DNA from: Pyrodictiaceae archaeon
Lineage (GTDB): Archaea; Thermoproteota; Thermoprotei_A; Sulfolobales; Pyrodictiaceae
Direction of reading: 5' to 3'
Length of the DNA: 22,346 bases
Assembly (NCBI GenBank): GCA_027033675.1
Contig: JALVKZ010000267.1
Location: 1 to 22,346, forward strand
Below, piece by piece: positions 12,325 through 18,522 of the stretch. A model generated the notes under the pieces. It saw nothing but the letters and a program-made list of their open reading frames with translations, had not been told where the DNA came from and did not search any database. A program made the translations under genes and the position numbers. Within the stretch, counting starts at the first letter, position 1, and each line of letters starts with the position of its first letter.

Positions 12325-13458
12325 ATGTCCAGGTACCCGCCAGCACACTGCGGCGTAGGAGAGTACACACGAATGCTTGTCTCAAGCCTATACTCTATTC
12401 GTCGAGACCTAGACATATTAGTTATAGCTACCGAGCTCTCGGGCAAAGAGCAGTACCAAGAAGCCACTAGCGGTGCCCTCGTCTATCCTGTGCTACGAGA
12501 GGAAGACAATGACTATGTCCGGTCCCTAGACGTACTAGCTGAGAGAAACGGTGCCGATATTCTACACATAGAGCATGAGTACGGCATATTTCATGACGGG
12601 TTAGGCCTGCTAAGCGTCATAGAAGAGGCTAAGAAGGAAAGACTCGCTAAGAGAGTAATAGTAACTCTACATACCGTATATCATCCCTCATCTGGGCGAA
12701 GCGACGCGTTATTCTTCCAAAAGAATCTACGCGCCAGTACAATAGACAAGATAATTGTTCATAGTAGGCTCCAAGAATTCGAACTTGAAGCTCAGGGCAT
12801 ACCCATGGATAAGATCGCTAGGATACCTCATGGGACATTGATAAATCCATATATTAGTATGCCGCGCGATAAGCTTTGTGAATCCCTGGGAATTAAAGGA
12901 GAGAGACTTCACGGCATCATACTAGTAACTCCGGGCTTCATTAGGCCCGATAAAGGACTGGATGTGTTACTCAATGCTCTAACCAGTATTAGATTCCCCT
13001 ATACGTTCATTGCTGCAGGCGAGTTCAAGGATTCAAGGATAAGAGAACTAGTAGAGAATAATAACAATACTATTGTTATCGAGAAATATTTATCCCACGA
13101 CGAGATACTAAAACTGATAGCTCTATCAGACATGCTTGTCCTACCCTATAAGGATAAGCCAGGCACATACTCTGTTAGCGGTATACTTCACCTATCCATG
13201 GGTAGTCTACGACCCATTATTGGCACCAGGGTGCCTCGTCTAATAGAACTCTATACAAGAGCCCCCCGCATGTGTACGACCCCCGGGAGTGTCAAGGATC
13301 TCGAGAAGCGCATTAATTGGGCCTATGATAACTACGATTTAGCAGTCGCCTATATGAGCGAGCTGTACGCCTACGCTGCTAGAACTCAGTGGATTCGTAT
13401 GGCCCGGCGCCACCTGGTGCTCTATAAAAAGATCCTAGTTAGAGGGGAAGCCTCGTAA
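12325..13458 (+). CDS. GT4-family glycosyltransferase
   Basis: A GT-B fold glycosyltransferase of 377 aa that transfers a sugar from a nucleotide-sugar donor. The N-terminal acceptor domain starts [17 protein letters not shown] and carries [12 protein letters not shown] and VTLHTVYHP. The donor domain shows [43 protein letters not shown] and a [12 protein letters not shown]...PII segment of the SG-type GT4 subgroup, then a C-terminal helix. Donor and acceptor are unknown. Only ATG 12325 is available in frame, yet the upstream in-frame codons would encode FRIAF, the expected first beta strand, so the N-terminus is probably longer (see findings). The 3' end overlaps folE by 20 nt. Confidence 0.88.
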
Positions 13459-14008
13459 ACCTATAGGGCCTTATTATGTTATAAACTTCCTCCTTAAGCG
13501 AGTCCTTAGATATAAAGGCCCCTCTAATAGCAGCAACAACCGTTGGCGATGGTGACCTTACGCCCCTCATAGTCATGCACAAGTGTATGGCCTCGGTTAC
13601 AACCATTACATCAGGAGAGCCAGTTGCCTTAATAACCTCGTCAGCTATCTGTTTCGTCATTCTCTCCTGTATCTGAAGCCTCCGCGAATACTTGTGCACT
13701 ATCTTGACTATCTTACTTAGTCCAATGACCTTTCCGCGCGGTAAGTAAGCTACATGAGCTACGCCGAAGAAGGGTAAGAGATGATGCTCACAGAGACTAA
13801 AGAACCTTATACCGCTAACTACTACAAGGTCGCTACTCTCAGTGAACCATGTATATTCTTCCTCGGCATCATAGCCTCCTAGGATCTCTTCAAGCATATC
13901 AGCTACTCTTTGGGGTGTCTCCCTTAATCCCTCTCTATCGGGATTCTCACCTATAGCTTCAAGTATCATTCTGATGGCTTGCTTGACTTTCTCCTTGTCA
14001 ATATTCAT
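13439..14008 (-). CDS. folE: GTP cyclohydrolase I (FolE type)
   Basis: Converts GTP to 7,8-dihydroneopterin triphosphate, the first step of pterin synthesis and of 7-deazaguanine (preQ0/archaeosine) synthesis. The 189-aa protein keeps all hallmarks: [14 protein letters not shown], zinc ligands C73, H76 (in [10 protein letters not shown]) and C144 (in HLCMTMRGV), [23 protein letters not shown] and a normal T-fold length. This is the bacterial/eukaryotic zinc type, not the MptA/FolE2 type used by many archaea. The ATG at 14008 follows GGGGAG, and a TATA box at 14041-14050 predicts a 12-nt leader. It is convergent with the glycosyltransferase (20-nt overlap) and divergent from pyrophosphatase. 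Confidence 0.96.
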
Positions 14009-15903: not shown

Positions 15904-16668
15904 ATGCCAAGAATTAAGGGCTTTGATCCAGTAAAGCTTGGTCTTCGATTAGAGGAGCTTGTTCAAAGGGAAGCTGATAGGAAGTACTACAGGTTTAGGG
16001 GGACAAGGTTCTATGGCGGAAGCTCTACCGGTGATGTAGTTGGTTGTAATCTTAGATGTATATTCTGTTGGAGCGGGAGAGCTAGAGATGATCCGCGACT
16101 CGGATTTTTTGTTTCACCAGAGTATGCATATAATCGACTTAGCAGCATAGCTCGAAGACATAAGTATAAATATATACGATTATCTGGCGGAGAACCAACC
16201 ATAGGTTGGAGGCATCTCATTAGTCTTTTAGACCTAGTTGAAAACTCCGATTTCATATTCATACTTGAAACCAATGGGATCCTCATTGGCGCCTTACGTG
16301 AGCGTGCGCGATTCCTCGCAAGGTATAGTAGGGTACATGTCCGTGTATCAATCAAGGCCTGCAACGAGGAATGGTTTACTAAACTAACTCTAGCAGAGCC
16401 AAAGGCCTTTAACTATCAGCTAATGGCTGTTAACAATCTCTTGGACTACGGTATCGACTTTCATATAGCTCTTTTCATGTCCTACGGCAACAATACTTGC
16501 TGGCAAGGCCTATTAGAGCGCTTAATCAACATAGCCGGGCAGGAGATAGTAAACATGCTAGAGCCCGAATATCTAGTGCTCTACCCTAATGTCAAGAAAA
16601 GGCTTCAACTGTATGAGAAAATTCTGGGTATAAAACCTAGAGTAGTCTTTGAGCCAAAGAGGCGATAA
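15904..16668 (+). CDS. Radical SAM enzyme of unknown substrate
   Basis: A 254-aa radical SAM protein. The 4Fe-4S-binding CxxxCxxC is GCNLRCIFC (C48, C52, C55), followed by the SAM-binding RLSGGEP (92-98) and FILETNGI (119-126) and a half-barrel of strands and helices. It lacks the C-terminal SPASM/Twitch cysteine cluster and the TRAM/B12 domains that would indicate function. Its start resembles organic-radical activating enzymes and QueE-like proteins only in general layout. A 126-aa Cys-rich gene begins 2 nt after its stop, so the two are almost certainly cotranscribed. No clear ribosome site was found before the ATG at 15904 apart from GGGGAG six nt upstream. Confidence 0.85.
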   Translation: MPRIKGFDPVKLGLRLEELVQREADRKYYRFRGTRFYGGSSTGDVVGCNLRCIFCWSGRARDDPRLGFFVSPEYAYNRLSSIARRHKYKYIRLSGGEPTIGWRHLISLLDLVENSDFIFILETNGILIGALRERARFLARYSRVHVRVSIKACNEEWFTKLTLAEPKAFNYQLMAVNNLLDYGIDFHIALFMSYGNNTCWQGLLERLINIAGQEIVNMLEPEYLVLYPNVKKRLQLYEKILGIKPRVVFEPKRR

Positions 16669-16670
16669 CA

Positions 16671-17051
16671 ATGTCTAGAATTGATGCTAATGTAGTAGTT
16701 AAGCTTCGGGAATCAATTAACCCTATAATAGCGCTAATTGACCCTTCATTCGAGATACTAGTAAAATATTCTTGCTTGATCTGCGGTGGGAGCATTTTTA
16801 ACGAATATATTGATAAATACTTTGTCCAAGCGTTGCGACAAGCATTTCTAGACTTATATACACTATATAGTTCATATGTTCCGTGGCTTCTCGTTGACGA
16901 GATAAGGATGAATAGGGGTAATTGTCCTATAATCCGTAGCTCGTTATGCAATAAGGTATCATATAATCTTAACCTTGATAAGAATGAATTAGTTGTTAGT
17001 GTTGATTGCAACAAGATTCATTATAGGTGTGTTTTCAAGGTACAAGCCTAG
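16671..17051 (+). CDS. Cys-rich hypothetical partner of the radical SAM enzyme
   Basis: A 126-aa unrecognised protein with six cysteines: C35 and C38 in YSCLICGG, C85, C93, C113 and C120. The arrangement, one CxxC and scattered later Cys, could bind zinc or an iron-sulfur cluster. The middle is helical and the end beta-rich (NLNLDKNELVVSVDCNKIHYRCVFKV). The ATG begins only 2 nt after the radical SAM stop, the strongest reason to think it is real and works with that enzyme. A 125-aa antisense reading frame (16637-17014) also exists but has no such context. Confidence 0.6.
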   Translation: MSRIDANVVVKLRESINPIIALIDPSFEILVKYSCLICGGSIFNEYIDKYFVQALRQAFLDLYTLYSSYVPWLLVDEIRMNRGNCPIIRSSLCNKVSYNLNLDKNELVVSVDCNKIHYRCVFKVQA

Positions 17052-17067
17052 AAACACAGCATGTTTT

Positions 17068-17122
17068 TCAGAAGGGTGGGCCCAGTCATTGCCTTCTGCT
17101 CCTCTGTGCGTAACTTCATCAC
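17068..17122 (-). ncRNA. Candidate C/D box guide sRNA
   Basis: On the minus strand a perfect C box GTGATGA (17122-17116) is followed by a C'-like CAATGAC (17091-17085) and, after a 13-nt spacer, a perfect D box CTGA (17071-17068); total 55 nt. A CAGA tetramer about nine nt after the C box could be D'. The C'-to-D spacing is the usual 12-13 nt, so the guide TGGGCCCACCCTT would direct methylation five positions from the D box. No target was identified. Confidence 0.5.
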
Positions 17123-17358
17123 ATAATTGTATAATCCAAACCAAACAACCTGTATGCGACATGAGATAAACTATAACATAGTGTTTAATCAATGTATGTG
17201 GGTCAGTGCTGCGCGGCTCCACATTCTTTTCTTCGGACCTTTCGAGCCTCTTCATTCCCGTATTCTATGTTTTAGACCGAGCTTACTATTAGTTGCTGCC
17301 ATTTTAACATGTGTTTATTCTAGATATTCTCTCCCACCCGGATAATACCTTTAGTCCT

Positions 17359-17367
17359 AGATATAGG
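17359..17367 (+). promoter_or_regulatory. TATA-like element of the transglycosylase-like gene
   Basis: AGATATAGG is centred 35 nt before the ATG at 17398, predicting a transcript with a leader of about nine nt. The match is moderate. Confidence 0.35.
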
Positions 17368-17397
17368 CTTGTATTACTCTATAAGTGGCGTAATACA

Positions 17398-18522
17398 ATG
17401 GGTGCATTCAAGCTTATCCTAGGAACACCTCTACAAGCCATACCGCGTCCTTGGCTGATGCTCCCCATAGAAGGCGTTATGGTGAATACATATGAAATAC
17501 TAAGTTATGGGCTGAGCAAGGTAAGGGGGCGCAACCTTAGAAGAATCCTTGGCATAGATAACACCAACATCGAGCTATGGATAGACAGTGGAGGATACCA
17601 ATTCCTTTCACGAGGGCTTAATCCGAGCGTTGATAAAATAGCTAAGGTGTACAGAGAGGTTGATGCTGATTACTATATAAGCTTGGACTATCCCCCAGGC
17701 CCGAGAGACGATGAGAAGATAAGGGCTATGAAAATTGCTAAGACTGTTTCGAGCTTCATGAGTATGAAGAACATACTACGAGGATTAATAGAGGAAGGAC
17801 GCCTAATCCCAGTATTTCATCTATCTGTAGGGGAGTCGCTTAGGATACAGCTTAGAGTCTATGAGTCCCACAGCATTACTGCAGCAGTTGGTGGACTGAT
17901 TCCACACTTCATGCAGCTATCTGGTAAGGGTTCGCGGCTCAAGGCAGTGTTATTCCTATTACTAATGCGTAGAATATGGAGAGGAAAACTTCACGCTTTA
18001 GGCCTAGCATCGGCAGCCATTATACCATTACTTAAAAGTATTGGCATAGATAGTGGTGATACACAGTCCTGGCGACATAAGGCCGCTTATGGTAAGATTA
18101 TCATACCAACGATAGGTGAACGTCACATATCAGGCCGACGTGTAAAATTTGGTCCATCTACTCTTCGTGAAGAAGAGTACCCCCTCTATAGAGAGTATTT
18201 GAGTAAGGCTTCTCGTATATTACGGAGACAGCTTAGTCATGAAGACTTGGTAAATAGTTTTGAGGCTAGGGCTCTGTTTAATTCATATATATTATTAGAG
18301 GTTGCGTCTAATGGTGCGAGATACAGGGGGCCCAGTAGAGCTTTTATGCGCTTATTCGAGAGGATACAAGAGTTAAAGAACCGGGATCCGAGTAGCTTGG
18401 AGGAGGAGCTAGCTAGACTAATAGAGCTTCGTGAGGAAGCAGTTGAGTACAAGTCTGTGCGGAGTGTTGAGAAAGGTGCCGTCTCTGTTAGCACTGTAGC
18501 CACAGAGGCATCGGTTGCCTAG
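17398..18522 (+). CDS. TGT-superfamily base-exchange transglycosylase, zinc-less, DpdA-like
   Basis: A 374-aa protein with the core of tRNA-guanine transglycosylases: WIDSGGYQ (general base D63), ISLDYPP (D97), ITAAVGGLIP (165-168, compare AIGGL), and GIDSGDTQSW (216-225) aligning with GVDMFDC of TGT so that D221 is the nucleophile. It contains no cysteine, so the structural zinc site (CxCxxC...H) of queuine/archaeosine TGTs is gone, and there is no PUA domain. Lack of zinc and retention of two Asp are features of DpdA, the enzyme that inserts 7-deazaguanine into DNA. The 40-residue tail is helical and ends in a Ser/Val/Ala-rich stretch. The ATG at 17398 is preferred over a GTG at 17311 because MGAFKLILGTP gives the typical first strand. 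Substrate, DNA or RNA, is unresolved. Confidence 0.75.
   Translation: MGAFKLILGTPLQAIPRPWLMLPIEGVMVNTYEILSYGLSKVRGRNLRRILGIDNTNIELWIDSGGYQFLSRGLNPSVDKIAKVYREVDADYYISLDYPPGPRDDEKIRAMKIAKTVSSFMSMKNILRGLIEEGRLIPVFHLSVGESLRIQLRVYESHSITAAVGGLIPHFMQLSGKGSRLKAVLFLLLMRRIWRGKLHALGLASAAIIPLLKSIGIDSGDTQSWRHKAAYGKIIIPTIGERHISGRRVKFGPSTLREEEYPLYREYLSKASRILRRQLSHEDLVNSFEARALFNSYILLEVASNGARYRGPSRAFMRLFERIQELKNRDPSSLEEELARLIELREEAVEYKSVRSVEKGAVSVSTVATEASVA

Follow-up and report, generated by a model that had tools for sequence, protein, structure and literature searches.

The gene at positions 17398..18522 (+ strand) of a 22,346-nt stretch of DNA from a Pyrodictiaceae archaeon (the window; GenBank assembly GCA_027033675.1, contig JALVKZ010000267.1, positions 1 to 22,346, forward strand) encodes a 374-aa protein that, judged by its sequence, is a zinc-less transglycosylase with an intact catalytic set. 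It resembles DpdA and belongs to a subfamily found in Crenarchaeota and in viruses. We slightly favor the view that this enzyme carries out a chromosomal, DpdA-like exchange of guanine for preQ0 in DNA, the inserted base then being tailored in the manner of ArcS. A stand-alone DUF5591 gene encoding an ArcS core, unlinked to the enzyme gene in Pyrodictiaceae, is a better supported partner than the radical S-adenosylmethionine (SAM) and Cys-rich genes that lie beside it. We surveyed 197 genomes of the order, 118 of them good (completeness at least 90%, contamination at most 5%). Genomes (G), loci (L), and families (f) carry the working handles of this survey, and family f11 is taken to be the Sulfolobaceae, from its virus relatives among other things.

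Fold, Catalytic Residues, and Clade of the Enzyme

No tRNA-guanine transglycosylase (TGT) or PUA model in Pfam matched the window enzyme at E values up to 1. The phage family PHROG 887 (“queuine tRNA-ribosyltransferase”) matched it at 5.9e-11, and a profile of its own family matched ArcTGT (PDB 1iq8) at 1.7e-9 and DpdA (PDB 7ui4) at 5.3e-4; the PADLOC “TGT” model gave a weak match (0.014). As modeled, the enzyme has a clear TGT fold. It is not a chance open reading frame (ORF), because relatives of 94-95% identity exist and matches occur across Pyrodictiaceae genomes: 17 of the 20 searched (in G100 solely at a contig end) and all six good ones.

The catalytic positions of TGTs align with four elements of the protein, all on the + strand: D63 (codon 17584..17586, in DSGGYQ), the predicted general acid/base; D97 (17686..17688, in LDYPP), the predicted base-recognition Asp; the VGGL loop of the base pocket (residues 164-167, 17887..17898); and D221 (18058..18060, in GIDSGDTQSWR), the predicted nucleophile. 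Over a 75-row alignment, D63 and D97 are invariant and D221 is kept in at least 90% of the rows. A preliminary description of this DNA had placed three ORFs here, for a radical SAM protein (15904-16668), a six-Cys protein (16671-17051), and a TGT-fold protein (17398-18522) that retains D63, VGGL, and D221 and has neither a cysteine nor a PUA domain. We recovered the same ORFs and the same residue numbering, and the 374 residues include zero Cys and no CxCxxC.

The CxCxxC zinc motif is also missing from 29 of 30 cellular rows and from all six virus rows of the family, as well as from nine phage and Paenibacillus DpdA rows; two haloarchaeal DpdA-type rows carry it. At the column of the base-binding Gln of tRNA TGTs, the window enzyme has H141 (codon 17818..17820, + strand). 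His fills this column in 30/30 cellular, 6/6 Sulfolobales-virus, and 11/11 DpdA-type rows and, by profile alignment, in 7ui4, a solved DNA-guanine transglycosylase. The column is Gln in E. coli Tgt and in 14/14 canonical TgtA, which aligned one column off at this site and whose raw strings read PIQG or PVQG (IQG in tRNA TGTs). This His-for-Gln rule, derived in the present analysis, suggests, through the active site, closeness to DpdA. H199 aligns with the conserved His196 of 9g DpdA, a match that does not discriminate because canonical TgtA has that His too. Two f9 rows (L067 and L186) are counted in the zinc, alignment, tree, and His tallies; their genomes are <90% complete and stand outside the 39 enzyme-positive good genomes considered below.

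In a 65-row tree, 28 cellular and six virus rows formed one group (support 85/92). The 14 canonical crenarchaeal TgtA stood apart (88/97), as did a group of nine DpdA rows (100/100; eight phage, one Paenibacillus plasmid). The virus rows nested among the f11 rows, and the two f9 rows fell outside the main clade. The sampling took in neither euryarchaeal ArcS N-termini nor chromosomal bacterial Dpd islands nor DpdA2, and because the tree is unrooted with long branches, its topology does not show closeness to DpdA. The enzyme lacks the zinc site, the pocket Gln, and the PUA domain of TgtA and lies outside its clade. Moreover, a PF01702 match besides the enzyme, mostly canonical TgtA, was found in 57 of 59 genomes of the order and in 49/49 good ones, with most frames ~500-560 aa long. 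The earlier characterization as a zinc-less, DpdA-like transglycosylase holds, given its place outside the archaeosine TGT clade, the missing zinc motif, and the profile match to 7ui4.

A scan of IMG/VR with the window enzyme gave no relative, and a plasmid search with an f11 enzyme gave two haloarchaeal matches only. Haloarchaeal plasmid islands (L196:1870-11337 and L197:4766-11557) encode a DpdA-type TGT, a long protein named as a TGT, and a BREX-type ATP-binding protein; the first also has DUF262 and QueD-like genes and the second a queuosine-precursor transporter. Further TGT paralogs with CxCxxC occur in Pyrodictiaceae (L157:1665-2774, L159:1279-2322, and L169:1353-2444), and the L157 paralog matches TgtA and ArcS models weakly.

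An ArcS-Core Protein Co-Occurs with the Enzyme

All 39 enzyme-positive good genomes have the DUF5591 partner (the G068 copy is cut by a contig end), one of the 118 good genomes (G162) has the partner alone, and 78 have neither gene, counts that rest on a partner profile (A2) built from this DUF5591 subfamily, partly from enzyme-positive genomes. The tally was made from the survey tables, with ~500-aa frames read as canonical TgtA and other DUF5591 types (1e-13 to 1e-24) left uncounted. Among less complete genomes, the enzyme occurs without the partner in G000, G076, G144, G082, G134, G055, and G165, and with a different DUF5591 type in G194; the partner occurs without the enzyme in G129, G035, and G092.

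In the f11 loci read, the enzyme gene overlaps a gene for a DUF5591 protein of ~180-210 aa in most cases or is within 2.4 kb of it. Two such neighbors were scanned and are DUF5591 at about 1e-20. A control search of Sulfolobus acidocaldarius gave no DUF5591. The f11 protein corresponds to the ArcS core (residues 261-409 of the NCBIfam ArcS model, 9.8e-22) and has the motif PCxxxKPYxxSxxH. Of 31 f11 genomes, 18 have a full-length enzyme, and DUF5591 is found in the same 18 plus G162. There, a decayed module (G162:C1:1400292-1401009, L185) consists of DUF5591 adjoining a 53-residue remnant of the enzyme, and the ~1000-aa ATPase described below is unmatched in the genome. In Pyrodictiaceae the partner lies elsewhere on the chromosome and reads PCSxVKPYTRSPTS, the last His being Ser. 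Partners are mostly about 180-290 aa, the core alone, without the full-length ArcS architecture; the three scanned match model residues about 200-414 only. In Njordarchaeota (L273 and L277), DUF5591 follows the enzyme after 4 and 7 nt. Enzyme relatives are also seen in Njordarchaeota and Asgard metagenome-assembled genomes (L273, L277, and L283).

Strong matches to QueC, a step of preQ0 supply, were found in 6/6 good Pyrodictiaceae genomes. A TIGR03916-like radical SAM gene (L204:4049-5128, with like regions in L201, L203, L206, and L220) lies near DUF5591 in five of 12 Pyrodictiaceae DUF5591 regions, directly beside it in two; scanned in L156 and L158, the TIGR03916 matches (5e-51 and 6e-51) were below cut-off and came with a helix-hairpin-helix match. 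We regard this protein as a candidate tailoring enzyme. No RaSEA was seen linked to the DUF5591 partner.

A different stand-alone ArcS core, of the PCSYGKPYSQSYIH type where the motif was read (G003 and G014), has as its neighbor a RaSEA-like radical SAM frame, about 250-310 aa long (G003:C17:17015-18129, G014:C109:77923-79043, G016:C5:54405-55465, and G023:C139:3867-5221); the two may constitute an archaeosine synthase of Crenarchaeota. We also saw three single proteins, 451-494 aa long (L049:16882-18366, L171:952-2307, and L173:909-2267). Those of L049 and L171, which were scanned, fuse a RaSEA-like N-terminal half to an ArcS core, and that of L173 is alike.

Operons with HerA, ATPase, and NurA, and Viral Copies

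Six loci (L058, L060, L062, L063, L182, and L183) share the same-strand order TGT-DUF5591-HerA-ATPase-p229-NurA, in which the ATPase is KAP-like and ~1000 aa long and p229 is a protein of ~230 aa; L058 has a 143-aa ORF inserted. In L175-L179, the block of HerA, ATPase, p229, and NurA stands apart from the enzyme/DUF5591 pair. Across the 31 f11 genomes, the ~1000-aa ATPase occurs in exactly the 18 that have the full-length enzyme. Other arrangements were also seen. L053 (f2) has enzyme-DUF5591-NurA-HerA-AAA. L067 and L241 combine a related enzyme with DUF5591, HerA, a PCNA-like protein, and a protein of very large size, L067 also having a GmrSD gene. HerA directly adjoins the enzyme in Vulcanisaeta and Caldivirga loci and also in L235-L239 and L244, and it lies at 4.2 kb from the enzyme in L283.

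Over 81 enzyme loci, HerA was found within 6 kb in 29 and DUF5591 in 20; these loci were not drawn at random, G183 was counted twice, and short loci cannot show distant genes. As a control, 144 kb of 38 TgtA/QueC/RaSEA loci contained one HerA. DUF5591 regions gave three HerA in 186 kb (12 Pyrodictiaceae regions) and none in 42 kb (three f3 regions). The three belong to regions of a second DUF5591 copy (G056, G028, and G039), some kilobases away. The one scanned, in L202, is HerA/TraG-like by Pfam, and that region looks like a conjugative island.

STSV1 (ORF18-ORF19) and STSV2 carry the enzyme and DUF5591 genes as an overlapping pair, and no DUF5591 match was found in any rudivirus record searched. 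Xiang and coworkers (2005) reportedly described an “unusual” modification of STSV1. Archaeal viruses (12 Ligamenvirales and two Bicaudaviridae) are listed among carriers of 7-deazaguanine genes in passages of PMC6884629, which also note the G+ pathway in Sulfolobus hosts; a host chromosomal paralog goes unmentioned in these passages.

A Proposed DNA Modification Pathway

In the pathway that we slightly favor, the enzyme would take guanine out of DNA and put preQ0, a 7-deazaguanine base, in its place; D221 would serve as the nucleophile and D63 as the acid/base, and H141 would sit in the base pocket. The DUF5591 ArcS-core protein would then attach an amine to the base at its nitrile, much as preQ0 in tRNA receives lysine from ArcS. 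According to passages of PMC11298593, the ArcS-RaSEA complex of Thermococcus kodakarensis attaches lysine to preQ0 even when the substrate is a nucleoside; an ArcS core acting on DNA is therefore chemically plausible. In f11, the enzyme/DUF5591 pair would mark self DNA, and unmarked DNA may be the target of the HerA/KAP-like ATPase/NurA module. By carrying one of the two genes or both, viruses and perhaps conjugative elements would give their own DNA the mark. Because no HerA module is linked to the enzyme in Pyrodictiaceae, the pair may be a solitary DNA mark there.

More tentatively, it is possible that many Crenarchaeota, Pyrodictiaceae included, have a chromosomal 7-deazaguanine derivative (perhaps dPreQ0-Lys or dG+) made by the DpdA-like/ArcS-core pair, that in f11 a HerA-ATPase-NurA restriction module uses it as its self-mark, and that viruses and conjugative elements copy one or both writer genes to escape. 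If true, Crenarchaeota would have a class of cellular DNA modification that did not appear in our searches of open-licence papers, written by a new combination of two enzymes (DpdA-like and ArcS core), and the TGT genes annotated in Sulfolobus viruses would gain a role. Family f11 provides a natural plus/minus set, with 18 genomes that have a full-length enzyme and 13 that do not.

Several observations weigh against a DNA pathway of this kind. The NCBIfam DpdA equivalog model did not match the window enzyme at E up to 1, the support of the enzyme clade is only 85/92, and the unrooted tree does not join the family with phage DpdA; the two haloarchaeal DpdA-type rows come out on the side of TgtA. 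The pocket His also occurs in two of three rows of the zinc-motif-bearing Pyrodictiaceae TGT paralogs (P3), so that it hints at a DNA substrate without proving one. Shared ancestry inflates the enzyme/DUF5591 co-occurrence counts, and the HerA profile was itself made from HerA sequences of enzyme loci of this kind. No HerA turned up in 11 Pyrodictiaceae enzyme regions (176 kb) or near the enzyme in seven f3 loci; among the 20 loci L229-L248, 13 were likewise without it, and the adjoining gene in L233 and L234 is an ABC transporter. In Pyrodictiaceae the enzyme is near-universal and comes with no restriction module. A good RaSEA match was lacking in both enzyme-positive f11 genomes sampled (none in G011, 7.8e-6 in G050), and T. 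kodakarensis ArcS is inactive without RaSEA (PMC11298593). Finally, passages of PMC11208441 report the DNA modification of STSV1 for cytosine.

Neighboring Genes in the Window

The preliminary description had proposed a modified-base insertion system in which making or tailoring the base would fall to the radical SAM and Cys-rich proteins. Insertion remains the best reading; the two neighbors as base makers did not find support. The radical SAM protein (15904..16668, + strand) belongs to a widespread archaeal family; it has CxxxCxxC and matches Pfam Radical_SAM at 5.3e-18. At E 0.001 it matched 166 of the 197 genomes and 104 of the 118 good ones, weak matches to other radical SAM families included. 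Genomes that lack the enzyme, among them G008, G009, and G012, gave matches at least as strong as 1e-50, whereas enzyme-bearing f11 genomes have matches of 1e-4 to 1e-9 or none. Its best NCBIfam matches, to MoaA-like and other models, are far below cut-off. Assignments to known families were not borne out: QueE models reach 2.8e-5 and 3.5e-5, far below their cut-offs; the RaSEA model TIGR01210 is not among the best 25 of 36 matching families, although a weaker match is possible; and PADLOC viperin models match at 1.2e-7, as expected of many radical SAM proteins.

The three genes are embedded in a more extended Pyrodictiaceae synteny, around folE, ppa, and a gene for a DUF89 protein. Besides the window, nine of 12 Pyrodictiaceae loci have the radical SAM gene upstream of the enzyme; the synteny breaks in three loci, the gene being absent in L036 and L041 and separated from the enzyme by another gene in L037. 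The Cys-rich protein (16671..17051, + strand; 126 aa, six Cys) starts after a gap of 2 nt and is followed by a gap of 346 nt before the TGT-like ORF. It is a fast-evolving Pyrodictiaceae protein, recognizable by BLAST (E <1e-3) in five of 11 candidate ORFs with its cysteines kept in part; a global search gave four database relatives, the structural model was poor (pLDDT 60), and neither relatives nor model revealed a function. Elsewhere in the window, folE (13439..14008, − strand) encodes GTP cyclohydrolase I by family scans and synteny, a possible first step of preQ0 supply and equally maybe of pterins. Judged by a sequence motif, the ORF at 473-1429 may encode a DNA cytosine-5 methyltransferase.

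Alternative Explanations

The enzyme and its ArcS-core partner might act on RNA instead, at a second tRNA site (as position 13 is modified besides 15) or in rRNA, the enzyme being a TgtA paralog without PUA domain and zinc site. Its chromosomal location and near-universal presence in Pyrodictiaceae, as expected for a housekeeping function, the lack of HerA linkage there, and the pocket His of other TGT paralogs would fit this reading. Yet that His is as in DpdA, the distribution within f11 is patchy (18/31), DNA viruses carry the enzyme, and in f11 it occurs in operons with HerA, NurA, and the ATPase and in the same genomes as the latter. Taken together, we consider an RNA substrate unlikely, but it deserves more weight than the remaining alternatives. 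One of these is a split ArcS, in which the enzyme would be the N-terminal TGT-like half and DUF5591 the core, tailoring TgtA-inserted preQ0 in tRNA with no base exchange. Euryarchaeal ArcS does join a TGT-like domain to a DUF5591 core, the NCBIfam ArcS models span 515-575 positions, and the two genes strictly co-occur. Retention of D63, D97, and nearly always D221 would be unexpected in a non-exchanging domain, however; an f11 enzyme matches the TgtA model (5e-4) but, at E 0.01, neither of the two ArcS models, and it is the neighboring DUF5591 protein that matches the ArcS core; and other ArcS cores of Crenarchaeota have RaSEA-like proteins as their partners. A split ArcS is improbable on these grounds.

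That the radical SAM and Cys-rich proteins supply or tailor the base for the transglycosylase is very improbable: the upstream position in nine of 12 loci speaks for it, but the synteny takes in other genes and breaks, strong radical SAM matches and the enzyme occur apart, and the cysteines of the Cys-rich protein are kept only in part. Nor do we see much likelihood that the enzyme has a TGT fold without catalysis and serves canonical TgtA as a partner or regulator. TGT enzymes form dimers, and in eukaryotes one subunit, QTRT2, is a paralog that does not catalyze the reaction; the catalytic residues of the present family are nonetheless kept across 75 rows, and PF01702 proteins occur in many genomes that lack the enzyme.

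Comparison with Known Systems

Like the enzyme, DpdA of bacterial Dpd islands and of phages 9g and CAjan (PDB 7ui4) has a TGT fold with two catalytic Asp, and the resemblance extends to the missing zinc site (in the nine phage and Paenibacillus rows), the His in place of the base-binding Gln, and the nucleophile motif D-[ST]. The window family differs in forming a separate clade, chromosomal across Crenarchaeota and unlinked to preQ0 genes, and in co-occurring with an ArcS-core protein, whereas the known partners of DpdA are DpdB and DpdC. The probable function of the enzyme is DpdA-like, but because the DpdA model has no match and the unrooted, long-branched tree does not place it with DpdA, we do not file it as a DpdA. 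The viral “queuine tRNA-ribosyltransferases” of STSV1/STSV2 and the rudiviruses SIRV1 and SIRV6 belong to the same clade, and STSV1/2 share the enzyme-DUF5591 pair; the virus copies differ in nesting within the f11 copies. TgtA has a zinc site, a pocket Gln, and further C-terminal domains and is present besides the enzyme.

With ArcS, the DUF5591 partner shares the core motif PCxxxKPYxxS; it is the core alone, without the TGT-like and PUA domains. arcS is lacking in most Crenarchaea, according to passages of PMC11298593. The BREX-Related Capture (BRC) systems, in passages of PMC12839542, combine HerA with parts of BREX and in some cases with a TGT as well (a subset), and as described there they resemble the enzyme loci in placing a HerA/FtsK translocase, an AAA ATPase, and, in that subset, a TGT in one defence locus. 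Pfam scans of chosen enzyme-locus neighbors gave no PglZ or DUF4007. By the same passages, BRC systems have PglZ, DUF4007, and, in a subset, GNAT, whereas the enzyme loci have NurA, DUF5591, and the KAP-like ATPase.

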